From NCBI GenBank assembly GCA_015520605.1, contig WAPT01000025.1, positions 1-39,104 on the forward strand: DNA of 39,104 nucleotides, read 5' to 3'. Source of the DNA: Nanobdellati archaeon. GTDB taxonomy: Archaea; EX4484-52; WAPT01. The notes beneath the pieces are model-generated. The model did not search any database, was not told where the DNA came from, and was given only the letters and a program-made list of their open reading frames with translations. The translations under genes and the position numbers were made by a program. Positions within the stretch are counted from its first letter, which is position 1, and the number at the start of each line of letters is the position of its first letter. Shown one piece after another: positions 329 through 19,488 of this stretch.

Positions 329-661
329 CTACTCCATCTCATCCTGCACGTATTTTCTACCAGTTTTGAGACATTCTTCTGCTCTGGCAAGTTCATAACC
401 GAGATAAGCGGCATGATCCAGCATTGTCACAAGATCGTATTTTAGTATGGTACGGAACAGATCTATACTGTTTTTTCCTCGGAAAACAAACTTGAGCCTC
501 CCACTTCCCGGCTTTTTATCATCTCCCACATATTCATAAGCTTCAACAACGATCTCCTTTGCCTCGTGATCCACATTTATGACGAAGAAATGTCTATCAA
601 GCTTTATCTCAGATTCATCATGCTTCTCGGCCCTTATCTCAAAAATCCTGTGGGGAAGCAT
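329..661 (-). CDS. Small DUF4346-like protein coupled to glyA
   Basis: A 110-residue soluble protein. The N-terminal half is beta-rich (HFFVINVDHEAKEIVVEAYEY). The C-terminal half ends in a helical motif (LDHAAYLGYELARAEECLK) followed by KYVQDE, which resembles my memory of DUF4346, a small domain found alone or attached to dihydropteroate synthase-like proteins in archaea. Its ATG overlaps the TAA of glyA in a TAATG arrangement, so translation is probably coupled and the two products are likely made together. That placement suggests a role linked to pterin or C1 metabolism, but this is inference. The biochemical function is unknown. The gene ends in TAG. The family assignment is moderate and from memory only. 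Confidence 0.6.
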   Translation of the reverse strand: MLPHRIFEIRAEKHDESEIKLDRHFFVINVDHEAKEIVVEAYEYVGDDKKPGSGRLKFVFRGKNSIDLFRTILKYDLVTMLDHAAYLGYELARAEECLKTGRKYVQDEME

Positions 662-1908
662 TAGCAGTAGTGCACCTCCCTAAAGCTTTTTCTGAACTCC
701 ACAACATCATCCCTAACATTTTCATCCTTAACGATTACACGATGTATGAATTCTGCTATCACTTCCATGTCACTTTCCTTACACCCCCATCTCGTCATTT
801 CCTGTGTGCCTATCCTTATGCCAGAGGGGTTCTTCATTGTCTCAGCGTTTGTTTCATCCCCAGGAATCATGTTCTTATTGGCTATTATGTTATTCTCTTC
901 CAGCTTTTCAGCGTTAATCTTACCCCCTCCATACTCCCTCACATCTATAACAACTTGATGGCTCTCGGTGTATCCGTATGGTTCTCCAAGAACCCTAAAA
1001 CCAAATTCTGCTAGCCTTTCTGCAAGCTTCTTAGCATTCTTTATGGTCTGCCTGGCGTAAGCCTCGCCATACTTCCACATTTCCCATGCTGTTTGCGCCA
1101 GAGCAGGAAGCCTGTGAATGTGATGGTTGCACACCAGCCTTGGAAATATGGCTTTTTGCACTCTTTCAAATTCGACATTTTCAGCAGCCATTACAACTCC
1201 TCCCTGGGGGCCGGGAAACGTTTTGTGAGTCGAGCTGGTGACTATGCTCGCGCCTTCCCTGAAAGGTTGCTGAAATTGCCCTCCTGCTATCAAACCAAGG
1301 ACGTGTGCGGCATCATAAACTACCAAACCTCCATAACTCTTTGCCGCATCGCTTATCTCCTTTATCGGGTGAGGGAAGAGGAAAAGCGAAGCTCCAAGTA
1401 TGACCATCTTTGGCTGCTCTTTCTCAATGATTTTCACCGCCTTATCCTCATCTATGTTCATCCTCTCCCTATCAAACGGAAGCTGCAGGACTTCCACACC
1501 CCTCAAACCAAGTGCGCCATGAATTGTGTGAGAGACGTGCGCTCCTGCAGGAACATCCAGAGCAGCAACTTTATCCCCATTTTCCAGAAAAGCAACGAAT
1601 ACGGCAAGGTTTGCTATTGTGCCGCTCAGGGGGCGGAGATCAACGTGATCAGCATCGAAAAGCACGGATATGATTTTTTGAGCCCTGACCTCCACCTCGT
1701 CCAAGTACTTGTGCCCTTGGTAGTATCTTTTGAAGGGTAAGCCTTCAGCATATCTGTGCATCATATCATTGAGATAAAGCCTCTCTGCCACTGGAGACAT
1801 GACGTTTTCGCTTGCTATGAGGTTTATACACTCGTATTTGCGCCAGAGATCATGGTGTTTGGTCAGATAAACAATCTCTCCTATCAGCTCCTCTGGACTT
1901 TTCTTCAT
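661..1908 (-). CDS. glyA: Serine hydroxymethyltransferase
   Basis: PLP enzyme that interconverts serine and glycine and moves the C1 unit onto a reduced pterin (tetrahydrofolate or a methanopterin-type carrier in archaea). It is cytoplasmic. About 415 residues, normal for the family. Visible hallmarks are the substrate-binding start region (YECINLIASEN), the PLP-site stretch SSTHKTFPGPQGG whose lysine forms the Schiff base, and DAAHVLGLIAGG. I chose the ATG at 1908. GTG 1917 is possible, because an AT-rich box at 1936-1948 would place the transcript start close to it. It heads a two-gene unit with the overlapping DUF4346-like gene and is divergent from the ThyX-like gene. With ThyA nearby it can supply methylene-pterin for dTMP synthesis (inference). 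Confidence 0.95.
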   Translation of the reverse strand: MKKSPEELIGEIVYLTKHHDLWRKYECINLIASENVMSPVAERLYLNDMMHRYAEGLPFKRYYQGHKYLDEVEVRAQKIISVLFDADHVDLRPLSGTIANLAVFVAFLENGDKVAALDVPAGAHVSHTIHGALGLRGVEVLQLPFDRERMNIDEDKAVKIIEKEQPKMVILGASLFLFPHPIKEISDAAKSYGGLVVYDAAHVLGLIAGGQFQQPFREGASIVTSSTHKTFPGPQGGVVMAAENVEFERVQKAIFPRLVCNHHIHRLPALAQTAWEMWKYGEAYARQTIKNAKKLAERLAEFGFRVLGEPYGYTESHQVVIDVREYGGGKINAEKLEENNIIANKNMIPGDETNAETMKNPSGIRIGTQEMTRWGCKESDMEVIAEFIHRVIVKDENVRDDVVEFRKSFREVHYC

Positions 1909-1935
1909 CAGCACCACAGGGATGGTTTAGGGGAG

Positions 1936-2065: not shown

Positions 2066-3361
2066 ATGAAAGCCGTGCGAGAGATTGTAAGAGCAGAACC
2101 CATTGACTATGCTCCGGTTTTTGAAGGTTTCGGGCCTGATGAAATAGTAACGGTATCGGGCATTCTCACGGCAAAGCGGGGCAGCTTCAAAGAGATGCTC
2201 AACACGCTTGATCCAGGTGTTGTAAAAAAGTTCCATCGGGAAGCGACAAGAAGGGGACATGCAAGTCTGCTAACAACACCCACATTCTATTTTTGGGTTG
2301 AGGGAAGCAGACTTATAGATCTCTTTTTCACAGCTTTTCCCTTTGGATCCTACCTGATGTTTAGTTCGCGCCGAATTGAGGTTACCAAGGAAAACATGAT
2401 CATCCCGGATGCTGTTGCAGGGACACCTTACGAAAAGGGTTATGTTCGGGTCTGCGAGAAGCTACTGAAAGTTTATAAGGAGCTTCTAAAGATTGGATAC
2501 GACCAAGCGAGGAACATACTCCCACTCGGATTCAGTTCTTATGGGTTATTTTCATTCCCAATGCAGACGATCCTCACGGCCATCAAAGAATGCGAACTAA
2601 ATCCTGAAATTCCTGAAGAAATACAGCTTATTTCCAACTTTTTCAAAGAGATTTTGAAGGAAAAAACACCATTCATCTTTGGCGCTTCCGAGAAAGCACA
2701 TTCCACGGGTTACCCGTTTCCCAACATATTTGGACGCCATGAAATAATGGAATCTCCTTCCATAGATGTTGTTCATGCAGGTGATATAAAAAGCGTCATT
2801 AAGCTGGTTTCTGAGAGGGGCTGGAAAGAAGCTGCAGAGCATGCGCAGACAGAGATTCTTGTCAAATGTGTGAGCACGCTATCCATAGCGGCGTGGAACG
2901 AGATAAAAAGGCACAGAACGGTCAGGCAATTCGTCGAGCCGATCTATGTTGCAGCGGAGCGATACCTCAGGGATCCGAAGGAAGAGTATTTTCACATCCC
3001 TCCGGATGCGGGTAAAAATTACATTGAGGCATTTCATGAAGCTATGGTGTTCTATGAGAGGCTTGTTGATGAGGGTGTGGATAGAAAACATGCGGTCTAC
3101 ATAGTGCCGCATGCTCTTAAAATAAAATTCAAGCTGCTCTTGGATGGGTATCATCTGCTGAACCCCTTCGGTTTTCTGGGTGTGAGGTGCTGCACCACGA
3201 CCCATTACGAGGTGAGGAACTTTGCCGGAGAAATAATACGTGCACTATCTGATTCTTTTCCGGAGCTGGAACCCTTGCTTGGACCCAAGTGCAAGACGGG
3301 TGTGTGTCCTGAGAGGAACCCATGCGGTAGGGTTAATCTTTACAGAAAAAACAAAAATTAA
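2066..3361 (+). CDS. Tandem ThyX-like (flavin-dependent thymidylate synthase family) protein
   Basis: 431 residues, about twice a normal ThyX (roughly 220-250). Two ThyX-like halves are visible. The N-terminal half keeps GHAS (64-67), TFYFWVEGSR (72-81) and QARNILP (147-153), but the RHR…S…RY flavin/dUMP signature is degenerate (FGSYLMFSSRR, 93-103). The C-terminal half has KRHRTVRQFVEPIY (281-294) with RY at 299-300, YIVPHAL (345-351) and a final THYEVRNFAGEI (379-390). These match the order of motifs in ThyX. A cysteine cluster (C409, C414, C420) closes the protein. ThyX makes dTMP from dUMP using FAD, NADPH and methylene-tetrahydrofolate. Whether this protein does so is unproven. It is divergent from glyA, and a thyA gene lies 4 kb away. 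Confidence 0.75.
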   Translation: MKAVREIVRAEPIDYAPVFEGFGPDEIVTVSGILTAKRGSFKEMLNTLDPGVVKKFHREATRRGHASLLTTPTFYFWVEGSRLIDLFFTAFPFGSYLMFSSRRIEVTKENMIIPDAVAGTPYEKGYVRVCEKLLKVYKELLKIGYDQARNILPLGFSSYGLFSFPMQTILTAIKECELNPEIPEEIQLISNFFKEILKEKTPFIFGASEKAHSTGYPFPNIFGRHEIMESPSIDVVHAGDIKSVIKLVSERGWKEAAEHAQTEILVKCVSTLSIAAWNEIKRHRTVRQFVEPIYVAAERYLRDPKEEYFHIPPDAGKNYIEAFHEAMVFYERLVDEGVDRKHAVYIVPHALKIKFKLLLDGYHLLNPFGFLGVRCCTTTHYEVRNFAGEIIRALSDSFPELEPLLGPKCKTGVCPERNPCGRVNLYRKNKN

Positions 3362-6575: not shown

Positions 6576-7055
6576 CTATAAATTCATTATGTATCTGTCT
6601 TCAGTAACATGCGAGAGTGGCACAAAGTCCTTCCTTCTAATATGTTCTTCCACAACCTCTCCTACAACTATGTAATGATCTCCGTGCCTGTACATCCCAT
6701 CAACAACACACTCGAAGCTTATCGGCGCTTCCCTTATACACGGTGCGCTGATTTTTCTTGACGGCTCTTTTGTCAGATTGGCAAGTTCAAACTTGTCAAC
6801 ATACCTGCCAGAATGAGTGCCGCAGATTTCTGCAGCTTTTTTCATGCTCACATCACACACATTAATGGTTAACTCCTTCGTTTCCTTCAGGTTCTCGAAG
6901 GTGTATCTCTGCGGAGCTATGGAAACCGCCAGATATTTCGGTTCAAAACTCACCGGCATAACGAAGCTTGCGGTCATGACGTTCGGCTTTCCTTCTCTAT
7001 TCACAGAGCATACAAGTACAACGGGCCTCGGCCATATCTGCTGGGAGATGCGCAT
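6576..7055 (-). CDS. Flavin reductase-like FMN-binding protein
   Basis: 159 residues with the split-barrel flavin-reductase fold: PRPVVLVCSVNREGKPNVMTASF at the N-terminus, FEPKYLAVSIAPQRYTFENLKET (flavin-binding loops) and a late ADHYIVVGEVV-like strand (GDHYIVVGEVV). Members bind FMN and act as flavoredoxins or NAD(P)H:flavin reductases. ATG 7055 is preceded by AAGGTG eight bases upstream; the GTG at 7061 is less likely. It begins about 20 bases after the thyA stop on the same strand, so the two are probably co-transcribed. A flavin protein is not needed by ThyA itself, but could serve the ThyX-like enzyme or reduction of the pterin product (inference). It ends with TAG TAG. Confidence 0.85.
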   Translation of the reverse strand: MRISQQIWPRPVVLVCSVNREGKPNVMTASFVMPVSFEPKYLAVSIAPQRYTFENLKETKELTINVCDVSMKKAAEICGTHSGRYVDKFELANLTKEPSRKISAPCIREAPISFECVVDGMYRHGDHYIVVGEVVEEHIRRKDFVPLSHVTEDRYIMNL

Positions 7056-7076
7056 CCGCACTACACCTTTCCAGAT

Positions 7077-7772
7077 TTACTCCCTTACAGATTCAGCAAC
7101 TCTCCTTGCGGTTTCAAAGTCCCTGCTATAAATATGAGCTGAAACAGAATAGCTATGTAGCTCTCCCATGAAAACTCTCTCACCAAGTCTCTTTCCAACT
7201 TCTTCCGCAACATACTTCTGGAGGTGTGTCAAAGCTACCCAGTTAGCGTAGCTCGCTCCAAAAATATCGTGGCTTCTGAAAAGCACGTCCATGTGTAGCT
7301 TTTTTACCGCGGGTAGCATTGGCGCTTCCTTCTCTTCCCTTATATTGAAGCAGATCACACGGAGGCAGGGGGGATCCCTTATCCTGTTAGGGAAGTGGTC
7401 TAAGGTCGGAATGGTGAGGTCGATAACTGCACGCCTGGTGAAAGGACTTTTGCTGAGTCTTTCTATGACGGCTTCCACTTGATTAACCTTTTCATCCCAT
7501 TTCCATATTCGTTCGCCGTATGTGTACTGAAAGCCCCACCTATTCTCCGGAGTCATAAGCTGATCGACATAGTCCTGCAAAGCTTTTCCGTGAAACGGAT
7601 ATTCCGCGGGAGCTTCATCTATACTTATGGTGGGCTTTTTTATCCTGACTGCAAGCCCTATAATCTCTTTCGTTTCGTCACCATCTTCTGTGACCATAAT
7701 TTTTCCGTGCTCCATAACCGCTTTGACGGCTTTCCTCCATGCATCCTCCGTAGTGTTTGCAACTATCAGCAT
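7077..7772 (-). CDS. thyA: Thymidylate synthase, archaeal ThyA type
   Basis: 231 residues from ATG 7772 (MLIVANTTEDAW). It makes dTMP from dUMP with a methylene-pterin donor. Visible marks are the catalytic cysteine in RDPPCLRV (C136), an arginine pair before it (FTRRAVIDL), the substrate-contacting RSHDIFGASYANW and a late HSYSVSAHIY. Archaeal ThyA proteins are shorter than bacterial ones, as here. The frame stays open back to a GTG at 7886, but that extension (IKISVLPAICLATLPAK…) has no family likeness, and an AT-rich box about 25 nt upstream of 7772 supports a leaderless ATG. A flavin-reductase gene follows at once. Having both ThyA and a ThyX-like gene within 5 kb is unusual. Confidence 0.88.
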   Translation of the reverse strand: MLIVANTTEDAWRKAVKAVMEHGKIMVTEDGDETKEIIGLAVRIKKPTISIDEAPAEYPFHGKALQDYVDQLMTPENRWGFQYTYGERIWKWDEKVNQVEAVIERLSKSPFTRRAVIDLTIPTLDHFPNRIRDPPCLRVICFNIREEKEAPMLPAVKKLHMDVLFRSHDIFGASYANWVALTHLQKYVAEEVGKRLGERVFMGELHSYSVSAHIYSRDFETARRVAESVRE

Positions 7773-7856
7773 AACATAATCAAAGCATGAAAAATTTTTT
7801 AGGGTTCGCGACTTTGCCGGGAGAGTTGCGAGACATATTGCCGGCAATACGGAAAT

Positions 7857-7865
7857 CTTTATATA
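7857..7865 (+). promoter_or_regulatory. TATA box for the HTH-surface protein unit
   Basis: CTTTATATA would put a transcript start near 7888, about 50 nt before the ATG at 7938. It is the only strong box before the HTH gene and so probably drives the giant surface-protein gene too. Confidence 0.5.
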
Positions 7866-7937
7866 CAACTCATCATTCTTATTCACTCTATAGCTCGAGA
7901 TTTCGAAATGCGAGTATGGCGAGGTGCTTTGAAGATC

Positions 7938-8159
7938 ATGAATATCTGTGAAAGAATTGTTGAGGAGCTTTCAAGGAAGCCAATGTCTGTTTCTGAGTTA
8001 GCTAAACGTCTCAATCTGAGGAGGGAGTTCTTGACGGGATACCTTGAAGCGATGAGGCAACAGGGTCTGTTGGAAAGAGTGGTGGTGGGGAGAGCACACG
8101 TTTACATCCCAAAACAGACCGTTTCGCTTAGTGGTGTGAGTGATGGTGAAGAGGAATAA
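7938..8159 (+). CDS. Small winged-helix DNA-binding protein
   Basis: 73 residues from ATG 7938, chosen because GAGGTG (7921-7926) lies 11 bases upstream; ATG 7908 has no such site. The protein is one winged helix: helix 1 ICERIVEELSRK, helix-turn-helix SVSELAKRLNLRREFLTGYLEAMRQQ, and a wing GLLERVVVGRAHVYIPK, with an acidic tail (SDGEEE). It resembles MarR/ArsR-like single-domain archaeal regulators or the helix-turn-helix half of larger factors. Its 3' end overlaps the start of the giant surface-protein gene by 17 bases, so the two are translationally coupled. It is a good candidate for a regulator of that surface protein (inference). Confidence 0.75.
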   Translation: MNICERIVEELSRKPMSVSELAKRLNLRREFLTGYLEAMRQQGLLERVVVGRAHVYIPKQTVSLSGVSDGEEE

Positions 8160-11100
8160 ATGGTTTATGGTGAAGGTAACAGTACTGTTGCTGGTAGTGC
8201 TCACAGTAGTGAACTTTAGCGCTCATGTTGCTTTTGCTCAGCCCAGCATAACATTAGTTCCACCAACTCCAAAGAATGGATCCGTAATCAACGTGTCGTG
8301 GTTTGAGGTGAATGCATCAAGTGTGGCTGCAAATCTCACACAGCTAAACCTGACGCTCGATGGTGTGAATTATTCAGTTTATGATAACTCAATTGTACTC
8401 TATCTCGGTTTCAACAACGTCTCGGCCATAGGGGAGAACAGCACGAATTTTGTTGACATCTCGCTCTACGGTAACAACGGTACATGTAACATAACCGCCG
8501 GAACATGTCCGGAATATGCTGTCGGGATCTTCGGCAATGCCCTGAGCTTTGACGGGGTGGATGATTATGTGGAAGTGCCGGACGGTTCTGAGTTTAATTT
8601 TACGGCTTCAGACAAATTCTCTGTTTGTGCTTGGGTAAATTTACCTGAAACTTCGAGCTACGAGGCTGTAGTCTCACAGGGTGATTATTCCGGATGGAGG
8701 CTTTTTGTATATAACACTTCATACTTTTTTGGATTTAATGGAACTGATGGTGTGTATCGTCAGACAGGTGCGCCGTTTGTTTACGGGAGTTGGCAGTTTA
8801 TTTGCGGGGAATATAATGGAACACACATACTCTTGTATAGAAACGGGGATTTAGATTCAGCTTACTTTACGAACGCGACGCCAATAGATCCAAATGCACC
8901 CGTAATTGTAGGCGCAACTTACACCGGTGCCTCTGCGGTTTTAAGGTGGTTCGCCAACGGCACAATCGATGAAGTCCGCATTTACAACAGAGCTTTGAGC
9001 GATGAGGAGATAAAGCTTCTCTATCGATCGTACCTCGCAAAATTAAACGCCACAGTATGGAATTTTTACGCGAATATCACGAACCAGAGCGATGGTCTGC
9101 ACACCTTCTCATTAACCCTTGAGGACAATGGAAGCGCAGTGGCAACCACCGGCACGAGATACGTGATAGTGGACACAAAACCACCCCGGATAATCGTGAC
9201 ATCCCCCGTTAATATGAGTGAATACAGCTCAAGAAATGTTACTCTGAACGTAAGCGTAGCGGATGTAACACCAGCCAACATAACTTATGAGGTGGACGAC
9301 AACGGCACGATCTTAACCCTCTGCACAAACTGCTACGGTGGCAGCGCCGTCCTCAGCAATCTAAGCGATGGTCTGCACACGGTGAAAATCACAGCAGTGG
9401 ATGCGGCTGGCAGGCAAAACGAAACAAGAGTGTACTTCAGAGTCGGAGCCACTCCGGTACATTTCATTATCGTTGATGGGCAGAACACATCACTTTCTGT
9501 GGTGGGGGCTCTCATCACCCTCGTGGGGAACGAAACATTCATTCCTTCGATTTACTCCAATCTCACAAACTCATCCGGCATGGTAACATTCCTCGTGGAC
9601 TCGAGCCAGGAATATTCCATCATCGTTTCAAAGGACGGATATCGCACCATAGTTCTTAACAATGTTGTGTTCAAAGCAGGCGATGTGATCAACCTCACCC
9701 TGTGGGGTAACACCACGATAAACGGCACGGTTTTGGACATCCTAACAAATCTTTCCATAAAAAACGCAACGGTGAAAATCTACAACGCTTCTGATTATCA
9801 GCTGAAATATGTAGTAAGAACTGATGACAATGGCTGGTTCTCGGCTGAGATCCCGTCCACAATGGACTATATCATAGAGATTTCGAGCATCAATTTTGTT
9901 ACCCGAAGCTGGTACTTTGATGCAGGAACGAACCTCAACAACTACACTTTCGAACTTTATGAGACGGGATGGGGCAGTTTTGAGGTATGGGTTGTTGATT
10001 ACCAGAACCACGCACCGATCGAGAACGCAACGGTAACCTTCGTACTTTCTGCAAGCGAGAACTTCACAGGAACAACGGACTCTAACGGCTATGCCAGAGT
10101 ATTTGTTAAAGCAAATTTAATCGACGGATATCCAGCAAGATATGGAATCGTGATCAAAAAAGACGGTTACAGAGAATATGAAAACCTAAGCGCCAATTTG
10201 ACCATTGAAGAAGGTGAGAATGTTCTTGTTGGAGAGTTCGAACTAAAGGGCTGGTATGTTATAAACGGCACGGTTACGGACGAATTCAACCCGTCACTTG
10301 CGGTCAGCAACGCTTCGGTTGAGCTGTGGTGGATGGATGGTGGAACGCTGGATGCTCCGGTCAATATCAACGGCTACAGATATTATACGATGACTGACGA
10401 GAGAGGACACTTTGAGATTTACGTTCCAAAACTGCTGCTCGAAAACAGAACCTTCGCTCTGAGGATTGACAGAGCCGGATATCAGCACCTCGATTACCCT
10501 TCGAATGGTGTTGGTCTATCGGCAGGAGAACAGGGTGTATTTAACCTCAATATAAAAATGAAGGGCACGATAAATATCAAGCTGACGGTTAAGGATGAGG
10601 GTAACGGGGCTCCGGTTCCGGATTTACCTGTGGTGATCAAGGAAAACAGTACGGAAGGGTACAATTACATTGCTCCCGCAACGTACACCTTCCGCACTAA
10701 CGGGGACGGAACGATAAATGTGTATATCAGGGGGAACGATGGCTACACTGTTGTGGTGGACGGGAGCTCGAACGGTTATCAGACACCATCACCTATAGAA
10801 GTTAACACGGGGACTGATTTGGATAGAGTGGTTTATCTCAGGGGCAGTTTGCAGATAACGGGGAGAGTTATTGATGTTAACACGGATGAAAACGGTTACA
10901 CAATAACTCTACCGGGCATAAGGGTCGTGCTATGTCCTGTATCGGGATCAACGTCCTGCTATGTTACGGAAACCAGCTCCTCAGGAATATTCTCCGTTTA
11001 CGTTAAGGGTTATGAGGATTATGAGATTACCGCGGACGGTAAGGAAAGCGGGTACAACACCACAACTATTCTAGTTAACAGTGCAGCAACCACATCTTTA

Positions 11101-14100
11101 GATGTGGGCGACATAGTGTTGGAGGGCAGATGCACAATAACCGGAAGAGTCATCGATAAATATTCAAGGTACATTCCGAAAGGCGTGTCCCCATACATTC
11201 CGAACCCGAGAGTTATAGTGGTCATGAACTTCAACGGAAAACTCATACGGTACTCTGTTGTTGGGGACGATAACGGTTACTTCACCATAAAGGTGCCCGC
11301 CGGTCAGATTGCCAGTAGCATCCGGATAGAAGTATTGGGTTACTATCCGTATCTCCTCGAGAATGTGGGCACAGTTGATGGCACCAAAAATCTCAGCACC
11401 ATTTCTCTTGTGGGGGCAACGCATTTGGAAGGCAAGGTTGTGGATGCCCACAACGGGAAGTCGCTGGGTGGTGTGAGTGTTAAAATTTATGAACCAGAGA
11501 ACGGTTCTTCAAAGCTCAGATACGAGCTCACAACCAATGATAGCGGACAATTCAACATAGATCTTGGTGTAACAACCGAATATACCGTGGAGCTGAGCAG
11601 AGCAGGATACACAACTGCAAGCTTTGAGGAAACACCATTCGAGAATATAAGCAGGACTTATTTCATGACGGGTGCAGGAAAAATAAGCGGAGAGGTACTT
11701 GATTACTACACAGGCACGCCCCTGCAGAACTTTACCGTAGAGCTATACGCGGAGGGAGACACAACTCCCACCTATAAATTCAGCAACCTTCATGGGAGCT
11801 TTACGATGTTTGTCGACAGCACGAAGTGCTACCGTATACGGGTTTACCAGTACGGATACCCCGTATTGTGGGTGGGGGGTGGGAAGTGTTACACACCACC
11901 AGTTGATTTTAGCGGGAGTAACGCGATAAAACTGAGGGCTTACTTTGAGACCTTTGTCTGCGATCGTTACAGTTACGATCCCGATAGTGAAAGTCCCTGT
12001 TATCCTCACAGACCCATCAAAAATGCCGATGTTGTCCTCTATTTCCGCACGAATGAGACCGGAAACTACGAAATAAATGGGCTCAATGTGACCAAGGTGA
12101 GAATCGATCTTAGCACGAAATACTGCTCGAATTCAAGCGCAAAGATCACCCTGACAAAGCTCGACGGATGCACGCAGGCACAGCAGAACCACAACCTCTG
12201 CACGATGACCGGTACTACAAACTCAACCGGTTACGCTTCCTTCCTTTACGTGCCGGTTGGAAAATACAGAGTCACTGTTGATGCGGTTAGTCAGGGATGC
12301 GGCATAAAGGAGGAGGAATTCAATATCTCAACAGAGAATGCGGGCAAACTCAACGTATGGAAAATCGAGTTTGTCAGGACATGGCTGGAAATTAACGTGA
12401 CCGATGGGCAGTACCCTATCGGTGGAGTGAATGTAACTTTATGGAACGGCTCCGTGATAGCGAGGAACACCGTTGGTGATCCGCTAACCGCCATAACAGG
12501 GATTGACGGCAAGGTTGTTTTTGACATGATGAGTCCCGGCACCTATACCCTCACAATGAAAAAGACCGATGCGGGAATAGATATTGTTAGAACAGTTGAG
12601 GTAAAAGAGGGCAATAATACACTTGTTTTTGATGTGCTACCACCCAGAATAACGGACACATACCCGAAGGACGGGGATATCATAATTCACGGCTGCGCGC
12701 TTTCCCCGCCACAACCCCTAACCCTTTGGGTTGCGACGAGCGAACCGACAACTGCAAACATAACTCTGGAGAAGTACGACGGCACGCTTCAACTACCCTT
12801 GATCACCAGCAATGTCACCGAGACCAACCACAGCTGGGAGCTTGCTCTGAGCTGCGGTGATTGGGTGTGGAACATAACTGCATGTGATTCTGCGGGAAAC
12901 TGTAATCACACGCACGTAACTTTCATACTTGCAAACGGGACCTCAACCGTGGCATTCACAATTCTCGATAACGGGGTTGCGGTGAGCGGCGCAAACGTAA
13001 CAATGTGGACCGCTACCGGAAAAATAGCCGAGAACACCACCGGTGCGAACCTCACCGCCATAACAGGGATTGACGGCAGGGTTGTTTTCACCGGTGTGAT
13101 TCCCGACAGTTACAACATCACCGTAAAGAACGCCACGAAACCCGTACTGACATTCATGAGAGGTATTTACAATACCAATTATAACTTTATTGTGGATTAT
13201 CAGAGACCAAGTATAACCGCGGTAGAACCCGAAAACAACACAAAATACTATGTCGCCTGCGGTGTGGACAAAGGTGCTAACGTAACTTTCAGTATCAACA
13301 CATCCGAGAGCACCAATTTCAGTGTTGATCTGGAGGGTGTCCAGACCATCCATTGGGGAAATCAAGAAGTATCGAACTCAACTCTGTTCAACCTGACACT
13401 TCCCTGTGGCAAGTGGAAATGGAATGTGACGGTCTGCGATCTCACTGGTAATTGCACAAATAAGACCAATCTTATCTTCGAGATTGTGGACACAAGCTTC
13501 ATAGTCAACGTGACTGATGAATACGGCAGACCGCTTGACAACATTTCCGTAACAGTGAGTAACGCCACGTATGCAGAGACAATACGTACAACCAATGGTC
13601 TGGCGATTTTCGGAAAGCTGGAAAATAATACACTCTACAACATAACTGTCAATGGCACTCTTCAGGGATATGGAAATGCGGTATTTACAAACCACGATGT
13701 TATCTGGGGTGATGTGCTAGGAGTTAGCCTCAACGTCACAACACTTACAGTTCTCGTCTATGATCCCTCGGGAAATCCGGTCAGCGGAGCCGAAGTAAAG
13801 GTGTATGAAAATTCCTCGGGTAGCTGGACGCTGGCAAGAGATGCAAACGGTAATCCGCTGATAAATACAACCGGAATTGATGGGAAGGTTGTGTTTACTA
13901 GAGTACTGCCATGCGATTACTGCAATGTTACCGTAAACAAGACAGGAACTATAAACTCCACAATTTTGAGCATCAGGGCAGGCGAGAAGGAACAGGTAAA
14001 TCTGGACCCGGAGATAATTTCGGGGGAAACTCCATTTGAACCTATCAATTCCTCTTCTGGGGAAAGATTTTTGGTTATACTCAAAATCCTTGACGAGTTC

Positions 14101-17100
14101 AACAAAACCGTTTTTGAAAATGTTACTGTGAAGTTAATCTCCACAACAACCGGTAAGGAATATGTTAACCGCACGGATAATAACGGGGTGGTGACCTTTA
14201 ATGTTACCTCCGACAGGTTCGATGTTATTGTTGATGGCTCTGATATGGGCTACGGGATTCTCACACTCAAGCGGGCAATAGCCATCGGATGGCTGAAGAT
14301 TAACGAGGGCAAAACCTATGCCAATGGTTACGTACGGCTTGATGTTGACGGGCAGCGCTATTATTATGTATTGGTGAAGGCGCCCGGTTATGAGGAATAT
14401 GACTCTAGAGATGAAGGCAAGGTGTATTTCGGTACACACACGATGGGTGATCATAATAACATTAATCTAAGTGGAACTGTAGAGGTGATGGGCCACGTTT
14501 ATGATACCTATTTTTCAAATCCCATCGACGCCAGAAAGAACATTTCTGGTGCGGATGTTTATCTCTATAGCTTAACCGGAACACCTTATGTAAGATACAG
14601 ATTCACAACGGACTCTAACGGTAACTTTTATGGTAGAATTTCTCCATATGTGGAGGGATCATCCATCCATGATAAAAGCTTGGACACATACAAACTTGTG
14701 GTTAAAAGGAAGGGATACATTACTTATACATACATAAACAGTACTACAGGTAATTCCAGAATCATTTTTGGTGATGACGAAAAAAAGTACTTCAACATAG
14801 GTATGACTGGTGTCGGAAGAGTTTACGTGCACCTTTACGATAAGGTAAATGGAGCACCCATAACTAACTACTCAAGCTTTAAACTTATTGATAGCAATGG
14901 GGTGGAACTTTACAGAAACATAGGCAGGGAAGGAAATCTGCTTTACGGTATTTACAATCCAGACTACAACCCTGCTCATCTTGTGGTGGAGGCCAGCGGG
15001 TATTGTCCGGCAGATATACCCGTAACATCTTTCGGTAACCTCATAAACATTCCCGTTTACCTGTACACATACGAAACATCGCAGCTGCTCATAACCGTAA
15101 GGGACATGCTGACCAGTCAGCCTGTTTCAGGTGCCACGATAACCTGCTATTACCTCGGCACCGACGAGAAGGTGTGTGAGGCGAGAACGAATTCCAGCGG
15201 CATGGCTCTGGTAACGATAAGTAAAAGCGGAACTTTAAACATTAAAATTAATGGGACATCCACATATCACGGAATCAAAATGATAGAGAATGTGAAAATC
15301 AATCCATGCGATGGGATCAAAATCAAAATCATAAATACAACTCTAATCCCGACGGGAGCGATAATCAGGGCGGTGAATGATCTCAATGAATACATCGATG
15401 GAAGGGTTCGCATGGTTAACACAAGAACGGGAAGAAGCTACGAGGTTCACATCAAGAATGGCGAAGCCATTTTTGCACCCATTCCGCCGGGTAATTACTC
15501 AATTGATTATGAACTTGGCCTGGTATATCTGCCGGCGAACGTATCCAATTATGTAAACATAACATCTTACGGTCAGCTTAAAAATGTAATTTCCATATTT
15601 AACGAGACCAGATTCGAAGTAAAGTTGGTTGATAACCAGACCTCTCTACCTGTGCGGGATATTAAAGTGTGTCTTGGCACCACATGTCTGTTTACAAATT
15701 CGGATGGAATTGCTTTGTTCAGGAGAGTCATACCCGGAAATTACACTTTGACCTTTGATAAGCTAAGTTCTTATAAAGCTGGATATTTCCCACACAACGA
15801 TGTTAACGTGAGTGTTGTTCGTGGTAAAAACGAGAATACAGGTAATAAGTTGGTGGTTAACCTTACACCAACTAAGGGATATAGCATTCTTCATATTAGG
15901 GTCAGAAATATCTACGCGAAGAACACCATGATCTATGTCTATGCCGATGGTGCAAGACTATATGCTCTTAATACAAGCAGAAACGGACTCGAGGCGTTTA
16001 TTCCTCTGATATATCCGCGAGAGGCAATGAAGGTCAAGGTTAAGGCCACACATCCTGGCTGTGGTATGTTTGTTTTTGGTCCTGTAGACCTAACAGAACA
16101 AGAGGTCAGGGATGTTTACATAACATTCAAATGCAGATCTGCAAGTTCCGAGGAGGGGTATAGACCATTAACTACTACCTCAATTAACGGAACGGGTAAT
16201 TTTCCTCAGAACAAACCTTTTTTTGCGCTCACCGTTGTTCCAAATCCAGTCGAGATATCTCCGGGCGGGTGCGCAACCGGAGAGTTAAGTTTAGAGAACA
16301 CGGGAGAAAAAATAATCACAAATGTGGTTTTGCGGAGTATAAAAACACCATACTACGCAATCAATGGTATTGGTCACATAGTAGCACTACTTCCGGATGA
16401 CAGGGAAATAATAAGATACTCGCTATGTATTTTCCGACCAGTAAACGAAGTTACAGCGACTCTTCTTTCCGATCAGTTGACAAAGGAGGTCACGATACCA
16501 GTGACATTAGTCCCTGAGACCATCAATGAAACGGAAACCAAGTCAATGCTTCTCGAAGACCTCAACGAGCTTAGGATGAAGTTGCTGAGCATTAACAGGA
16601 GCGCATTGCCTCCCGAGTTGCAACGAGAATATGATGAGGTGCAGGCACATTTGCAATTTGCGAGCAATTACGTAGCGAGTGGCAACTACGCACTCGCGAG
16701 AAATGAAACAGAGGAGGCGAGAAGAATATTGGAAAATCTGGAAAGTTACATGGTGTCCACTAAACAGAATGGATTGAATAAAAAAAGAGGAATTTCAAAA
16801 GAAACGATAATAATATTGTCCTTTATAGGGGTCTTTGGGATCTTAATACTGATTTATTTGAAGGAAACAAGAAATATTTTCAAACAAGCGTCATCTGGAT
16901 CTGCAAGTTTACTCTCAAAAATAGTGAAAGATATACCTGCGGGATTCGTAAAGAGAGCTGAAAAAAATAGAGGGACGTATCGCACATCCTCGATCCCGTC
17001 CAGATCATCCATACATCCCGTTCCCCGGTTCACCGCTGAAAACGTACCAGTTGTGATGGAGGGAGGAAAAGATATTCATCCTGAGCATTCAGATTTTCTT

Positions 17101-17226
17101 TATTTCACGGAGCCCGTTGCAAAACAGGAATACATATCTTACCTCAAAAAAGTAATAGAGAGCACGGAACGCTGCCCTTACTGTGGAATGAGGAAGGTCA
17201 ATGGAAGGTGTCTTAGATGTGACTGA
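8143..17226 (+). CDS. Giant cell-surface protein with LamG, CarboxypepD_reg repeats, TM anchor and cytoplasmic zinc ribbon
   Basis: 3027 residues from ATG 8143 (GTG 8140 precedes it directly). In order: signal peptide 1-32 (VTVLLLVVLTVV core, likely cut after AFA); a LamG/concanavalin-like domain about 85-295 (GNALSFDGVDDYVEVP, WQFICGEYNG, GTIDEVRIYNRALSDEEI); Ig-like sections (SDGLHT repeated); then more than 2000 residues of CarboxypepD_reg/Cna-B-like beta domains, each with a G-x-V-x-D…T-D-x-N-G-x-F pattern; cysteine-paired Ig units near 1500-1780; a CARDB/Ig-like domain about 2692-2795 (VPNPVEISPGGCATGELSLENTGE); a coiled coil about 2800-2871; one membrane helix 2889-2906; a basic cytoplasmic tail of about 120 residues; and a terminal CPYC…CLRC zinc ribbon (C3011, C3014, C3023, C3026). 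N-x-S/T sequons are very frequent, implying heavy N-glycosylation. Likely adhesin or surface sheath; partner unknown. Confidence 0.9.
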   Translation: MVKRNKWFMVKVTVLLLVVLTVVNFSAHVAFAQPSITLVPPTPKNGSVINVSWFEVNASSVAANLTQLNLTLDGVNYSVYDNSIVLYLGFNNVSAIGENSTNFVDISLYGNNGTCNITAGTCPEYAVGIFGNALSFDGVDDYVEVPDGSEFNFTASDKFSVCAWVNLPETSSYEAVVSQGDYSGWRLFVYNTSYFFGFNGTDGVYRQTGAPFVYGSWQFICGEYNGTHILLYRNGDLDSAYFTNATPIDPNAPVIVGATYTGASAVLRWFANGTIDEVRIYNRALSDEEIKLLYRSYLAKLNATVWNFYANITNQSDGLHTFSLTLEDNGSAVATTGTRYVIVDTKPPRIIVTSPVNMSEYSSRNVTLNVSVADVTPANITYEVDDNGTILTLCTNCYGGSAVLSNLSDGLHTVKITAVDAAGRQNETRVYFRVGATPVHFIIVDGQNTSLSVVGALITLVGNETFIPSIYSNLTNSSGMVTFLVDSSQEYSIIVSKDGYRTIVLNNVVFKAGDVINLTLWGNTTINGTVLDILTNLSIKNATVKIYNASDYQLKYVVRTDDNGWFSAEIPSTMDYIIEISSINFVTRSWYFDAGTNLNNYTFELYETGWGSFEVWVVDYQNHAPIENATVTFVLSASENFTGTTDSNGYARVFVKANLIDGYPARYGIVIKKDGYREYENLSANLTIEEGENVLVGEFELKGWYVINGTVTDEFNPSLAVSNASVELWWMDGGTLDAPVNINGYRYYTMTDERGHFEIYVPKLLLENRTFALRIDRAGYQHLDYPSNGVGLSAGEQGVFNLNIKMKGTINIKLTVKDEGNGAPVPDLPVVIKENSTEGYNYIAPATYTFRTNGDGTINVYIRGNDGYTVVVDGSSNGYQTPSPIEVNTGTDLDRVVYLRGSLQITGRVIDVNTDENGYTITLPGIRVVLCPVSGSTSCYVTETSSSGIFSVYVKGYEDYEITADGKESGYNTTTILVNSAATTSLDVGDIVLEGRCTITGRVIDKYSRYIPKGVSPYIPNPRVIVVMNFNGKLIRYSVVGDDNGYFTIKVPAGQIASSIRIEVLGYYPYLLENVGTVDGTKNLSTISLVGATHLEGKVVDAHNGKSLGGVSVKIYEPENGSSKLRYELTTNDSGQFNIDLGVTTEYTVELSRAGYTTASFEETPFENISRTYFMTGAGKISGEVLDYYTGTPLQNFTVELYAEGDTTPTYKFSNLHGSFTMFVDSTKCYRIRVYQYGYPVLWVGGGKCYTPPVDFSGSNAIKLRAYFETFVCDRYSYDPDSESPCYPHRPIKNADVVLYFRTNETGNYEINGLNVTKVRIDLSTKYCSNSSAKITLTKLDGCTQAQQNHNLCTMTGTTNSTGYASFLYVPVGKYRVTVDAVSQGCGIKEEEFNISTENAGKLNVWKIEFVRTWLEINVTDGQYPIGGVNVTLWNGSVIARNTVGDPLTAITGIDGKVVFDMMSPGTYTLTMKKTDAGIDIVRTVEVKEGNNTLVFDVLPPRITDTYPKDGDIIIHGCALSPPQPLTLWVATSEPTTANITLEKYDGTLQLPLITSNVTETNHSWELALSCGDWVWNITACDSAGNCNHTHVTFILANGTSTVAFTILDNGVAVSGANVTMWTATGKIAENTTGANLTAITGIDGRVVFTGVIPDSYNITVKNATKPVLTFMRGIYNTNYNFIVDYQRPSITAVEPENNTKYYVACGVDKGANVTFSINTSESTNFSVDLEGVQTIHWGNQEVSNSTLFNLTLPCGKWKWNVTVCDLTGNCTNKTNLIFEIVDTSFIVNVTDEYGRPLDNISVTVSNATYAETIRTTNGLAIFGKLENNTLYNITVNGTLQGYGNAVFTNHDVIWGDVLGVSLNVTTLTVLVYDPSGNPVSGAEVKVYENSSGSWTLARDANGNPLINTTGIDGKVVFTRVLPCDYCNVTVNKTGTINSTILSIRAGEKEQVNLDPEIISGETPFEPINSSSGERFLVILKILDEFNKTVFENVTVKLISTTTGKEYVNRTDNNGVVTFNVTSDRFDVIVDGSDMGYGILTLKRAIAIGWLKINEGKTYANGYVRLDVDGQRYYYVLVKAPGYEEYDSRDEGKVYFGTHTMGDHNNINLSGTVEVMGHVYDTYFSNPIDARKNISGADVYLYSLTGTPYVRYRFTTDSNGNFYGRISPYVEGSSIHDKSLDTYKLVVKRKGYITYTYINSTTGNSRIIFGDDEKKYFNIGMTGVGRVYVHLYDKVNGAPITNYSSFKLIDSNGVELYRNIGREGNLLYGIYNPDYNPAHLVVEASGYCPADIPVTSFGNLINIPVYLYTYETSQLLITVRDMLTSQPVSGATITCYYLGTDEKVCEARTNSSGMALVTISKSGTLNIKINGTSTYHGIKMIENVKINPCDGIKIKIINTTLIPTGAIIRAVNDLNEYIDGRVRMVNTRTGRSYEVHIKNGEAIFAPIPPGNYSIDYELGLVYLPANVSNYVNITSYGQLKNVISIFNETRFEVKLVDNQTSLPVRDIKVCLGTTCLFTNSDGIALFRRVIPGNYTLTFDKLSSYKAGYFPHNDVNVSVVRGKNENTGNKLVVNLTPTKGYSILHIRVRNIYAKNTMIYVYADGARLYALNTSRNGLEAFIPLIYPREAMKVKVKATHPGCGMFVFGPVDLTEQEVRDVYITFKCRSASSEEGYRPLTTTSINGTGNFPQNKPFFALTVVPNPVEISPGGCATGELSLENTGEKIITNVVLRSIKTPYYAINGIGHIVALLPDDREIIRYSLCIFRPVNEVTATLLSDQLTKEVTIPVTLVPETINETETKSMLLEDLNELRMKLLSINRSALPPELQREYDEVQAHLQFASNYVASGNYALARNETEEARRILENLESYMVSTKQNGLNKKRGISKETIIILSFIGVFGILILIYLKETRNIFKQASSGSASLLSKIVKDIPAGFVKRAEKNRGTYRTSSIPSRSSIHPVPRFTAENVPVVMEGGKDIHPEHSDFLYFTEPVAKQEYISYLKKVIESTERCPYCGMRKVNGRCLRCD
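12487..13078 (+). repeat. Internal 567-bp duplication unit in the giant surface gene
   Basis: A 25-base block is identical at 12487-12511 and 13054-13078, an offset of 567 bases (189 codons). It encodes TAITGIDG followed by K/R-VVF in each copy. The surrounding protein is also repeated: N-V-T-x-W…, an Ig unit with C-G-x-W-x-W-N-x-T-x-C, then the next copy. A third, more diverged copy (NTTGIDGKVVFTRV) lies at about 13861-13905. This marks relatively recent tandem expansion of one 189-residue double domain. Confidence 0.8.
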
Positions 17227-17263: not shown

Positions 17264-18151
17264 TCACAGCTCAAGCCCGTAGACCTGAATAAAACGAGAG
17301 TTTCTTTCCTCCACCAGCATTTCCACAAAGGCGGTCGCGTCAAACACATACCTTGCATTTTCTATTGGGCCGTAGAGAACAAAATCCGCACCGAATAGAA
17401 CTGGCAGTACACTCGATGCCACATCAACATGCTTGCAGCTTTCTCTTTTTTTTATCCAACTCCACGAACTCACAGCATTATGCATCCCGCAACCGGTGGG
17501 ATAACCGTACCTCGCTTTCAGCGTGACCAGAGCCTCCAGAGACGTGGCCGCACCACGTTTTAGCGGTGTGGTGGCGGTATCCATCATAAGATTCTCGGCA
17601 CCGATCTCCCTGACATTTTCAAGCAGTCCCTTACCGAGAGCACCGTCCTTCTCAAGACACGATATCTTGTCCTCAATACTTTCTCCCCCGACAGCATGCG
17701 CAAGGATCAGAACATTTTTTAATCCAATTTCTGTAAGTTTTTCCTTTTCATCCCTGTTAAGGGTTATGTTTATGGAGTTGTACACAATTCTTGAGAGAAA
17801 CCCGGTTTCCTTTGCAAATTTTATTGCCTCTACTCTGGCCTTATAGCTGAGAGAGTCCACGAGAATGGGATTCCCGTCCCTTTCAGCCACAAACTCGAGC
17901 CGTTTGAGCAAGGAGGTGCTATCTTTTCCATAAACATTGGTCATGTAAGGGATTCTGGTTTCATCGCTTCTCTCCTGTTGCAGAACGAGAAGTTCTTCAG
18001 CCTTGTCGCTATCGAATTCACCGTTTTGCTTCACTATTTTATGTCCTTCATAAAAAATCGTTCCGATCATGACTGGCGGCGTTTCTCCGGGCTGACCTCC
18101 AAGCACGATATTTCCTATTTTCATTTTTTTCTGATCCGGATAGAGGAACAT
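17264..18151 (-). CDS. mtrH: MtrH-like methyltetrahydropterin:corrinoid methyltransferase
   Basis: 295 residues. In methanogens MtrH moves the methyl group from methyl-tetrahydromethanopterin to the cobamide on MtrA. Its TIM-barrel signature is visible: IGNIVLGGQPGETPPVMIGTIFY near the start, PIL-VDSLS for a strand/active-site loop, and GCGMHNAVSSW near residue 230. ATG 18151 follows GAGAGGTGG seven to eight bases upstream; ATG 18184 has weaker support and no family match. It follows mtrA by 54 bases and stands 38 bases past the end of the giant surface gene. MtrB-G are absent here. That points to a soluble methyl-transfer role (for example between a pterin and another methyltransferase or the acetyl-CoA pathway), not a sodium pump. 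Direction and partner are inferred. Confidence 0.9.
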   Translation of the reverse strand: MFLYPDQKKMKIGNIVLGGQPGETPPVMIGTIFYEGHKIVKQNGEFDSDKAEELLVLQQERSDETRIPYMTNVYGKDSTSLLKRLEFVAERDGNPILVDSLSYKARVEAIKFAKETGFLSRIVYNSINITLNRDEKEKLTEIGLKNVLILAHAVGGESIEDKISCLEKDGALGKGLLENVREIGAENLMMDTATTPLKRGAATSLEALVTLKARYGYPTGCGMHNAVSSWSWIKKRESCKHVDVASSVLPVLFGADFVLYGPIENARYVFDATAFVEMLVEERNSRFIQVYGLEL

Positions 18152-18205
18152 GCGTTTTCCACCTCTCTGCGGAGGAAGATCCAAAATTCAAAGCAACATC
18201 AAAAA

Positions 18206-18844
18206 CTAATTCTCACACAATCTTTCCATCATGTTTATTTTAAAAGTTAGCGGATCCAGAATAGTAATCTCGTTGAGGTAAATGACCTCGCTTTTTCCTG
18301 AGTAGATTTCGCATCTCTTCGTATCTTTTGTCTTGTGCCCGAAGGTATGCAGCACTTCATCAACATCCACTTTTTTGGGAAACTGCTGTGGTTTTTCCTT
18401 TTCAAGTTCCGTCAAAACCTCCTCAATTTTGGACACGGAAACGTTGCCTACGAGATCAACAACCTCCAGTATCTGCTGTCTGAAGTGTTCTACCCATTCC
18501 CTCCTTATGTTTTCAAGATAAGGAATGGCACCTCTTGCCCCGACAATTCTACCTTCTCCATCCACCCCATTTTCAACGAGCTTTATCAGTGCGTCTCCGG
18601 GATAATGTCCTTTCGATTCCTCGCCGTATAGTACGAGATAGCGGATGTTGGGATTGGTTATCACGTTGACTATTATTTTTTCAACTCCCAGATTCTCCGT
18701 TTTGACACTGCCGAGTATGGCGATAGAAACGTGATGGAGAAGATCTGTGAAACTCTCCGGTTTGGTATTGAGGGTTGCTACAGCGATCCAGCCTTCCGGG
18801 TTGTTTACAATATAGTCCCCGATTAGTGGGGGCCAATTTTTCAT
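18206..18844 (-). CDS. mtrA: MtrA-like corrinoid protein, soluble (no membrane anchor)
   Basis: 212 residues. The corrinoid-binding MtrA domain is clear: WPPLIGDYIVNNPEGWIAVATL at the N-terminus, GVEKIIVNVITNPNIRYLVLYG, then SKGHYPGDAL whose histidine (H80) matches the cobalt ligand of methanogen MtrA, followed by NGVDGEGRIVGARGAIPYLEN. Methanogen MtrA usually ends in a membrane helix. Here the C-terminus (KRCEIYSGKSEVIYLNEITILDPL…) has none, so the protein should be cytoplasmic. A GAGGT site precedes ATG 18844, and it starts 11 bases after the dCMP deaminase stop. With MtrH downstream it forms a minimal pterin-to-corrinoid methyl-transfer pair. It ends in TAG. Confidence 0.92.
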   Translation of the reverse strand: MKNWPPLIGDYIVNNPEGWIAVATLNTKPESFTDLLHHVSIAILGSVKTENLGVEKIIVNVITNPNIRYLVLYGEESKGHYPGDALIKLVENGVDGEGRIVGARGAIPYLENIRREWVEHFRQQILEVVDLVGNVSVSKIEEVLTELEKEKPQQFPKKVDVDEVLHTFGHKTKDTKRCEIYSGKSEVIYLNEITILDPLTFKINMMERLCEN

Positions 18845-18855
18845 CGAACCTCACA

Positions 18856-19422
18856 TTATATTTTCTTTGTAGGAAACGATGGATTTGGTTGGGAAATAGC
18901 CAACCCTCCAAGAAGATGTGAGACATCGACGAAATCCACTTTTATTCCCGCATCTTTGAGAATCTCGAGCCCTTCGGTATCGCTGTATTCTCCGCAGACC
19001 ACAACCCTTTTTATTCCCGCATTAACCGTCATTCTGGCACACAGCTTGCAGGGAAACCCGTTTACATAAAGAGTTGCACCTTCTGCATTTCTGCCTGCCT
19101 GCATCAAAGCGTTCATTTCGGCATGAACAGCTATGCACTCCTCATGCATCATTCCGCTTGTACCACCTTTGGCCCTCTTCGGGCAGTATCCGAGTTCTAT
19201 GCAGTCTTTCATACCTCTCGGGGCTCCATTATAACCTGTAGATATGACTTGTTTGTTCTTCACCACCACCGCACCGTACTGCCTTCCAGGGATTATGCAG
19301 GTGGATCTCTGCGCAACAACCCAAGCCATTAAAGCGAAGTATTCGTCCACGCTTAATCTGGTTCTGCGCAGTGGTAAACTCTTTTCGTTTTCTCTTCCCA
19401 TAATCTCGGTTTTATCCCTCAT
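18856..19422 (-). CDS. dCMP deaminase (zinc-dependent cytidine/deoxycytidylate deaminase family)
   Basis: 188 residues. It deaminates dCMP to dUMP, the substrate of thymidylate synthase. The zinc site is complete: HAEMNALMQAG (zinc histidine and proton-shuttle glutamate) and PCKLCARM (two zinc cysteines). RLSVDEYFALMAWVVAQRSTC near the N-terminus and NKQVISTGYNGAPRGMKDC are typical of ComEB-type dCMP deaminases. ATG 19422 follows GAGGTG with five bases spacing; the GTG at 19437 lies inside the upstream region. It leads mtrA and mtrH with an 11-base gap, so it is probably co-transcribed with them. It fits the thymidylate theme of the region. A riboflavin-type deaminase is less likely given the motif spacing. 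Confidence 0.9.
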   Translation of the reverse strand: MRDKTEIMGRENEKSLPLRRTRLSVDEYFALMAWVVAQRSTCIIPGRQYGAVVVKNKQVISTGYNGAPRGMKDCIELGYCPKRAKGGTSGMMHEECIAVHAEMNALMQAGRNAEGATLYVNGFPCKLCARMTVNAGIKRVVVCGEYSDTEGLEILKDAGIKVDFVDVSHLLGGLAISQPNPSFPTKKI

Positions 19423-19488
19423 ATTGACACCTCTCACGCACAGGACTTTGACTCCTTAGGTTCTTTAACCATATTTCAACTCATGATA

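Follow-up and report, generated by a model that had tools for sequence, protein, structure and literature searches.

The window analyzed here, a stretch of 39,104 nucleotides (contig WAPT01000025.1 of the Nanobdellati archaeon assembly GCA_015520605.1), contains a gene predicted to encode a tandem ThyX protein, herein referred to as the double ThyX. This protein is likely a flavin-dependent thymidylate synthase with the ThyX fold, consisting of two fused domains with complementary active-site losses. Two fused chains probably make up the working dimer, with two active sites instead of four. The features of the gene and its neighbor are listed in Table 1.

Table 1. Positions in the window of the double ThyX gene, its halves and active-site residues, and the adjacent gene.
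Feature	Positions	Strand	Details
Double ThyX gene	2066..3361	+	431 aa + stop; Thy1 (PF02511) in both halves
N-terminal ThyX half, ~aa 1-232	2066..2761	+	retains dUMP-side residues; Thy1 39.8 bits
GHAS, aa 64-67, GHxS motif (T. maritima H53 region, Mtb S71), N-half	2255..2266	+	G64 and H65 invariant in 15 doubles
R82, SRx-motif arginine (Mtb R87)	2309..2311	+	invariant in 15 doubles
S100-S-R102-R, equivalent of S88-x-R90-(Y91)	2363..2374	+	dUMP-binding loop retained in N-half; lid Tyr replaced by Arg
R149, equivalent of R147	2510..2512	+	N-half only
C-terminal ThyX half, ~aa 233-431	2762..3358	+	retains flavin-side residues; Thy1 61.6 bits
R282-H-R284, RHR (T. maritima 78-80), flavin motif	2909..2917	+	C-half only; first Arg in 19/19 C-halves, 0/19 N-halves
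VEPIYVAAER, in place of the SQRY loop, C-half	2933..2962	+	E291, Y294, A296, and R299 largely conserved in the family
R374, equivalent of R174	3185..3187	+	C-half only; direct pairwise alignment of R374 onto R174 and residue table
C-terminal GPKCKTGVCPERNPCG tail	3281..3328	+	ordinary ThyX tail
Serine hydroxymethyltransferase (SHMT)	661..1917	-	divergent neighbor, makes the one-carbon donor; NF000586 444 bits

Thy1 is the sole Pfam family found on the 431-aa protein (102.9 bits for the whole protein, in two stretches). In a search of the genome with this family, the N-half was matched at nt 2177-2671 (39.8 bits) and the C-half at nt 2774-3265 (61.6 bits), and each half separately exceeds the curated cut-off of 24.8 bits. 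No second ThyX was found by this search in the genome (863 kb, 91% complete). Additionally, a profile of 15 doubles matched the ThyX of T. maritima, for which the structure is solved, through the N-half (E=1.4e-15) and the Thermus ThyX 6j61 through the C-half (E=2.2e-9). Full-length homologues were found at 93, 42, 40, 39, and 38% identity to the window protein. The closest of these belongs to G002, and the other four (G051, G068, G065, and G064, 38-42%) belong to another phylum of the same domain. Together with a broader set of 15 doubles that can be aligned, these homologues indicate that the tandem architecture is no local artefact.

The AlphaFold model of the N-half is weak (pLDDT 61, pTM 0.53), and its best 50 matches in the PDB, at a TM-score of ~0.5, all belong to the ThyX family, including PolB. 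The model of the full-length protein is poor (pLDDT 44). The alignments used for modeling were thin and contained viral ThyX; thus, the models carry little weight, and the N-half model, which is consistent with a ThyX fold, provides no independent proof of it. In the preliminary description, a missing ThyX fold in one half was to count against a double ThyX; the weak N-half model, matching ThyX-family structures throughout, gives no such refutation.

Each active site of ThyX is assembled from several subunits. In Mtb ThyX, one site is formed by RHR and R199 of subunit A, S71 and R190 of subunit B, and R87, S105, R107, and Y108 of subunit C, where R199 corresponds to R174 of T. maritima and Y108 is the lid tyrosine (PMC6514825). 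In PBCV-1 ThyX, Q75 and R182 are located on one monomer and S88 and residue 89 on another (PMC3498832), in agreement with the Mtb assignments. For comparison, 17 archaeal doubles were cut into halves and aligned with 26 single ThyX; with the doubles from Thermomicrobium and a faecal phage added, 19 doubles were analyzed (R78, S88, R90, R147, and R174 are given in T. maritima numbering). All 26 single ThyX have R78, R174, the SRx arginine, S88, R90, R147, and H53. Among the N-halves, S88, R90, and R147 are present in 19/19, the SRx arginine and H53 in 18/19, and R78 and R174 in 0/19. Among the C-halves, R78 and R174 are present in 19/19, R90 and R147 in 0/19, and the SRx arginine and H53 in 1/19 each.

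In the window protein, R78, R174, the SRx arginine, S88, R90, and R147 each occur once across both halves. A contiguous RHR...S.RY is absent from either domain, with RHR found only in the C-half and S-x-R only in the N-half. Five arginines, R82, R102, R149, R282, and R374, are invariant in the 15 doubles, and each corresponds to an active-site residue. When a profile of the 15 doubles was aligned independently with T. maritima ThyX, S100, R102, and R149 likewise fell on S88, R90, and R147. The loss of RHR...S...RY from the N-half, as claimed in the preliminary description, is thus correct for RHR, but S100-S-R102-R and R149 are kept. The C-half was rightly recognized as ThyX by its RHRTVRQFVEPIY (R282-R284), but it is incomplete, the SxR part and R147 having been lost.

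Judging from these residues, the active site is incomplete in both halves. The halves have lost complementary residue sets, the remaining residues forming one complete class of composite site, with the reciprocal class gone. Because the losses differ and are complementary, the evidence points to one shared site class built from both halves, which most likely must act together. The earlier proposal of a pseudo-dimeric ThyX with active sites at the interfaces is supported. If either half can keep the copy of each of four key arginines, a complete site remains in 2 of the 16 possible patterns, and chance would give such a split in 1 of 8 cases after one fusion; the weight of the argument therefore comes from the fixed conservation over highly diverged lineages and not from the first event. 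Comparison of the window gene with that of G002 gave dN/dS values of 0.20 and 0.15 for the two halves and ~0.18 for the whole gene; both halves are under purifying selection.

Two residues of the site are less conserved, a point against the proposed enzyme, as is the lack of any NCBIfam match for the relative G051. The lid Y91 is replaced by Arg in 11/19 N-halves and the R165 equivalent is absent in 12/19; neither residue is retained in the clade A doubles. In the N-halves of clades A and B (aa 103 of the window protein), the replacement of the lid tyrosine occurs as SSRR and SLRR. This change could alter the chemistry or be offset by the conserved Y294 of the C-half.

In the proposed assembly, two chains would form a ThyX-like pseudo-tetramer. 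Each working site would comprise one C-half (position A) and N-halves at positions B and C; position B is also assigned to an N-half because GHxS, which belongs to this position, is found in nearly all N-halves. By 222 symmetry, four domains would have two complete sites, and the other two interface sites would be dead. dUMP would be methylated with the methylene group of a reduced pterin, no dihydrofolate being made, and this pterin would be charged by the neighboring SHMT.

Genes adjacent to the double ThyX were compared among its relatives. In 10 loci, SHMT and the double ThyX are adjacent; depending on the locus, the two genes diverge, converge, or lie on the same strand. SHMT also adjoins a single ThyX in L007. 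CTP synthase was found near the double ThyX in 3 loci (L081, L083, and L084). In L088, the gene immediately upstream of the double ThyX is a dTMP-kinase homologue. In four genomes (G051, G064, G065, and G068), the double ThyX is the only ThyX and ThyA is absent, and three genomes of the same family as G051 (G066, G067, and G069) have ThyA and no ThyX. The one-sided chance of this replacement (4 vs. 3 genomes in one family, drafts 72-90% complete) is 1/35. In the phylum of G148, ThyA was found in 0/19 genomes, while the double ThyX was found in 6 and a single ThyX in 7 of them, never together. DHFR was found in 0/9 tested genomes with the double ThyX, and it adjoins ThyA in G066, which would fit a ThyX-type chemistry that yields no dihydrofolate.

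The case for thymidylate synthesis is stronger for the family than for the window genome. Besides the double ThyX, a methanogen-type ThyA is encoded in the window genome (G000) and in G002; in G001, from the same genus, ThyA is the only one of the two. In the window, ThyA (7077-7886, minus strand) lies a few kb from the double ThyX, scores just above the TIGR03283 cut-off, and is adjoined by a flavin-reductase-like gene (6576-7061). Inspection by eye revealed the conserved cysteine (PPC) and the RSxD stretch, and this ThyA looks intact. The double ThyX of this genome therefore need not be its thymidylate synthase.

With dTMP supplied by ThyA, the double ThyX of this genome could be a flavoenzyme with the same double ThyX fold and split site that acts on another substrate (UMP or another pyrimidine nucleotide) or catalyzes a reduction, which we consider unlikely. 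Besides ThyA in both G000 and G002, this reading is favored by the replacement of the lid tyrosine by Arg and by the low ThyX equivalog score: at 47 bits, the window protein falls below the TIGR02170 cut-off of 87.9, which is passed by two clade-B doubles and by those of G044 and Thermomicrobium roseum. The structural matches include the UMP/dUMP methylase PolB (4p5b), and an atypical ThyX from Corynebacterium is described as unnecessary for thymidylate in the title of 3ge9. On the other hand, every dUMP-contacting arginine is retained, the clade-A relatives with the same SSRR loop have neither ThyA nor another ThyX, and SHMT, CTP synthase, and dTMP kinase are neighbors of the double ThyX in relatives. 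Another pterin or nucleotide substrate, as suggested in the preliminary description, is possible though unlikely for the window genome, which also has a ThyA; the neighbors and the gene replacement in relatives favor thymidylate synthesis.

A working ThyX domain formed by the C-half alone, with the N-half as a structural or regulatory pseudo-domain, is very unlikely. The C-half does score higher with Thy1 (61.6 vs. 39.8 bits) and carries RHR, but it lacks R90, R147, and, in 18/19 cases, the SRx arginine. Moreover, R90 and R147 are present in all 19 N-halves, and a merely structural half would not retain exactly the dUMP-side residues. The earlier notion of one active and one regulatory or structural site accordingly did not hold, as neither half is complete and each has lost different, complementary residues. 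Very unlikely, too, is a redundant gene being lost, that is, an inherited fusion inactive in the window genome: ThyA is present and G001 has no double ThyX, but the low dN/dS is alike in both halves and all family-invariant residues are intact in the window and G002.

In the window, a stand-alone small pterin-binding DUF4346 protein (329-661, minus strand) adjoins SHMT. Genes for MtrH, MtrA, and a protein of the dCMP/cytidine-deaminase family are located in a row (17264-19437, minus strand); MtrH and MtrA are parts of a methanopterin methyltransferase, here in a DPANN-type genome, and the deaminase is a possible source of dUMP. The window also encodes a predicted surface protein of 3028 aa (8140-17226, plus strand) made up of carboxypeptidase-regulatory-like and Ig-like repeats. 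It carries a laminin-G-like domain and, toward the C-terminus, a hydrophobic stretch, and it terminates in CxxC...CxxC.

The cysteines C409, C414, and C420 were correctly located in the preliminary description, but they are no added cluster: the tail is that of an ordinary archaeal ThyX, and the single ThyX of other archaea finish in GPxCxxxGYCPEGxxxCG. A new metal site was rejected on the same ground. In total, the double ThyX resembles known ThyX (PF02511, TIGR02170) in the family profile found in both halves, the catalytic residues taken together, and the C-terminal cysteine tail. It differs in having two domains, each without the opposite part of the site, in the Arg at the lid position, and in the score below the TIGR02170 cut-off. 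The double from Thermomicrobium roseum (WP_012643046, 557 aa, "FAD-dependent thymidylate synthase") has the same tandem layout and residue split; in contrast to the window protein, it is bacterial, longer, keeps the lid tyrosine, and scores above the TIGR02170 cut-off. A long and divergent ThyX homologue from chlamydiae reportedly works as a thymidylate synthase. ThyX without ThyA was found in all 6 chlamydial genomes counted in a review (PMC5954106). PolB (PDB 4p5a/4p5b) is likewise a ThyX-family enzyme acting on UMP/dUMP; it differs from the window protein in its single domain and is not its closest relative.

A profile search of 394 genomes revealed additional doubles in G347, G129, G110, G148, and G281, in G037, G320, G253, and G236, and in G230. 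Further doubles were found in G044, Thermomicrobium roseum, and a faecal phage. The last is encoded by 470 codons on an unannotated contig (L123, MT835736.1) and has the same residue split. Long ThyX ORFs L017 (553 aa) and L121 (490 aa) were left out as single ThyX split by intein-like inserts; these inserts, which look like inteins or homing elements, are large and located inside or just after the RHR...SxRY motif. L096 was also left out, being a single ThyX.

In the phylogenetic tree, 15 N-halves form one well-supported clade (99/96) and 15 C-halves another (100/99), which indicates that the archaeal family arose by one duplication and fusion. G044 and G230 could not be placed with confidence, and a single clade of all C-halves was not rejected by the AU test (p 0.39). 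A single origin of all doubles is thus neither shown nor rejected, and convergence is not claimed; the same applies to a shared origin of the Thermomicrobium roseum double, which is of the G044 type, with the archaeal family. The C-half of G230 retains GHxS and NAR, which hints at a separate fusion event. No viral source of clade A was found in a scan of viral contigs, and ThyX in phage records is mainly single. Tentatively, ThyX may have been fused repeatedly (in archaea, in G044/Thermomicrobium, in G230, and in the faecal phage), the same site class being kept each time, with flavin-side residues in the C-half and dUMP-side residues in the N-half. Formation of the reciprocal site may be blocked by the linker; if so, domain fusion would repeatedly convert a homotetramer with four sites into a pseudo-tetramer with two.

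Tandem ThyX is already present in databases under the ThyX name, as for T. roseum; the complementary loss, as a variant of ThyX, appears to be new. No report of complementary residue loss in tandem, fused, or DPANN ThyX was found in the open-access literature searched. The double ThyX suggests a thymidylate route in small-genome archaea that is partly missed by automated annotation, as for the relative G051, whose double ThyX has no NCBIfam match whatsoever and hence no name. The double ThyX would provide a natural separation of flavin- and nucleotide-binding halves, in which each can be mutated within one gene with its copy untouched; in a homotetrameric ThyX, by contrast, every mutation strikes all four sites. 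It is also a clear example of complementary loss after domain duplication that can be read residue by residue.
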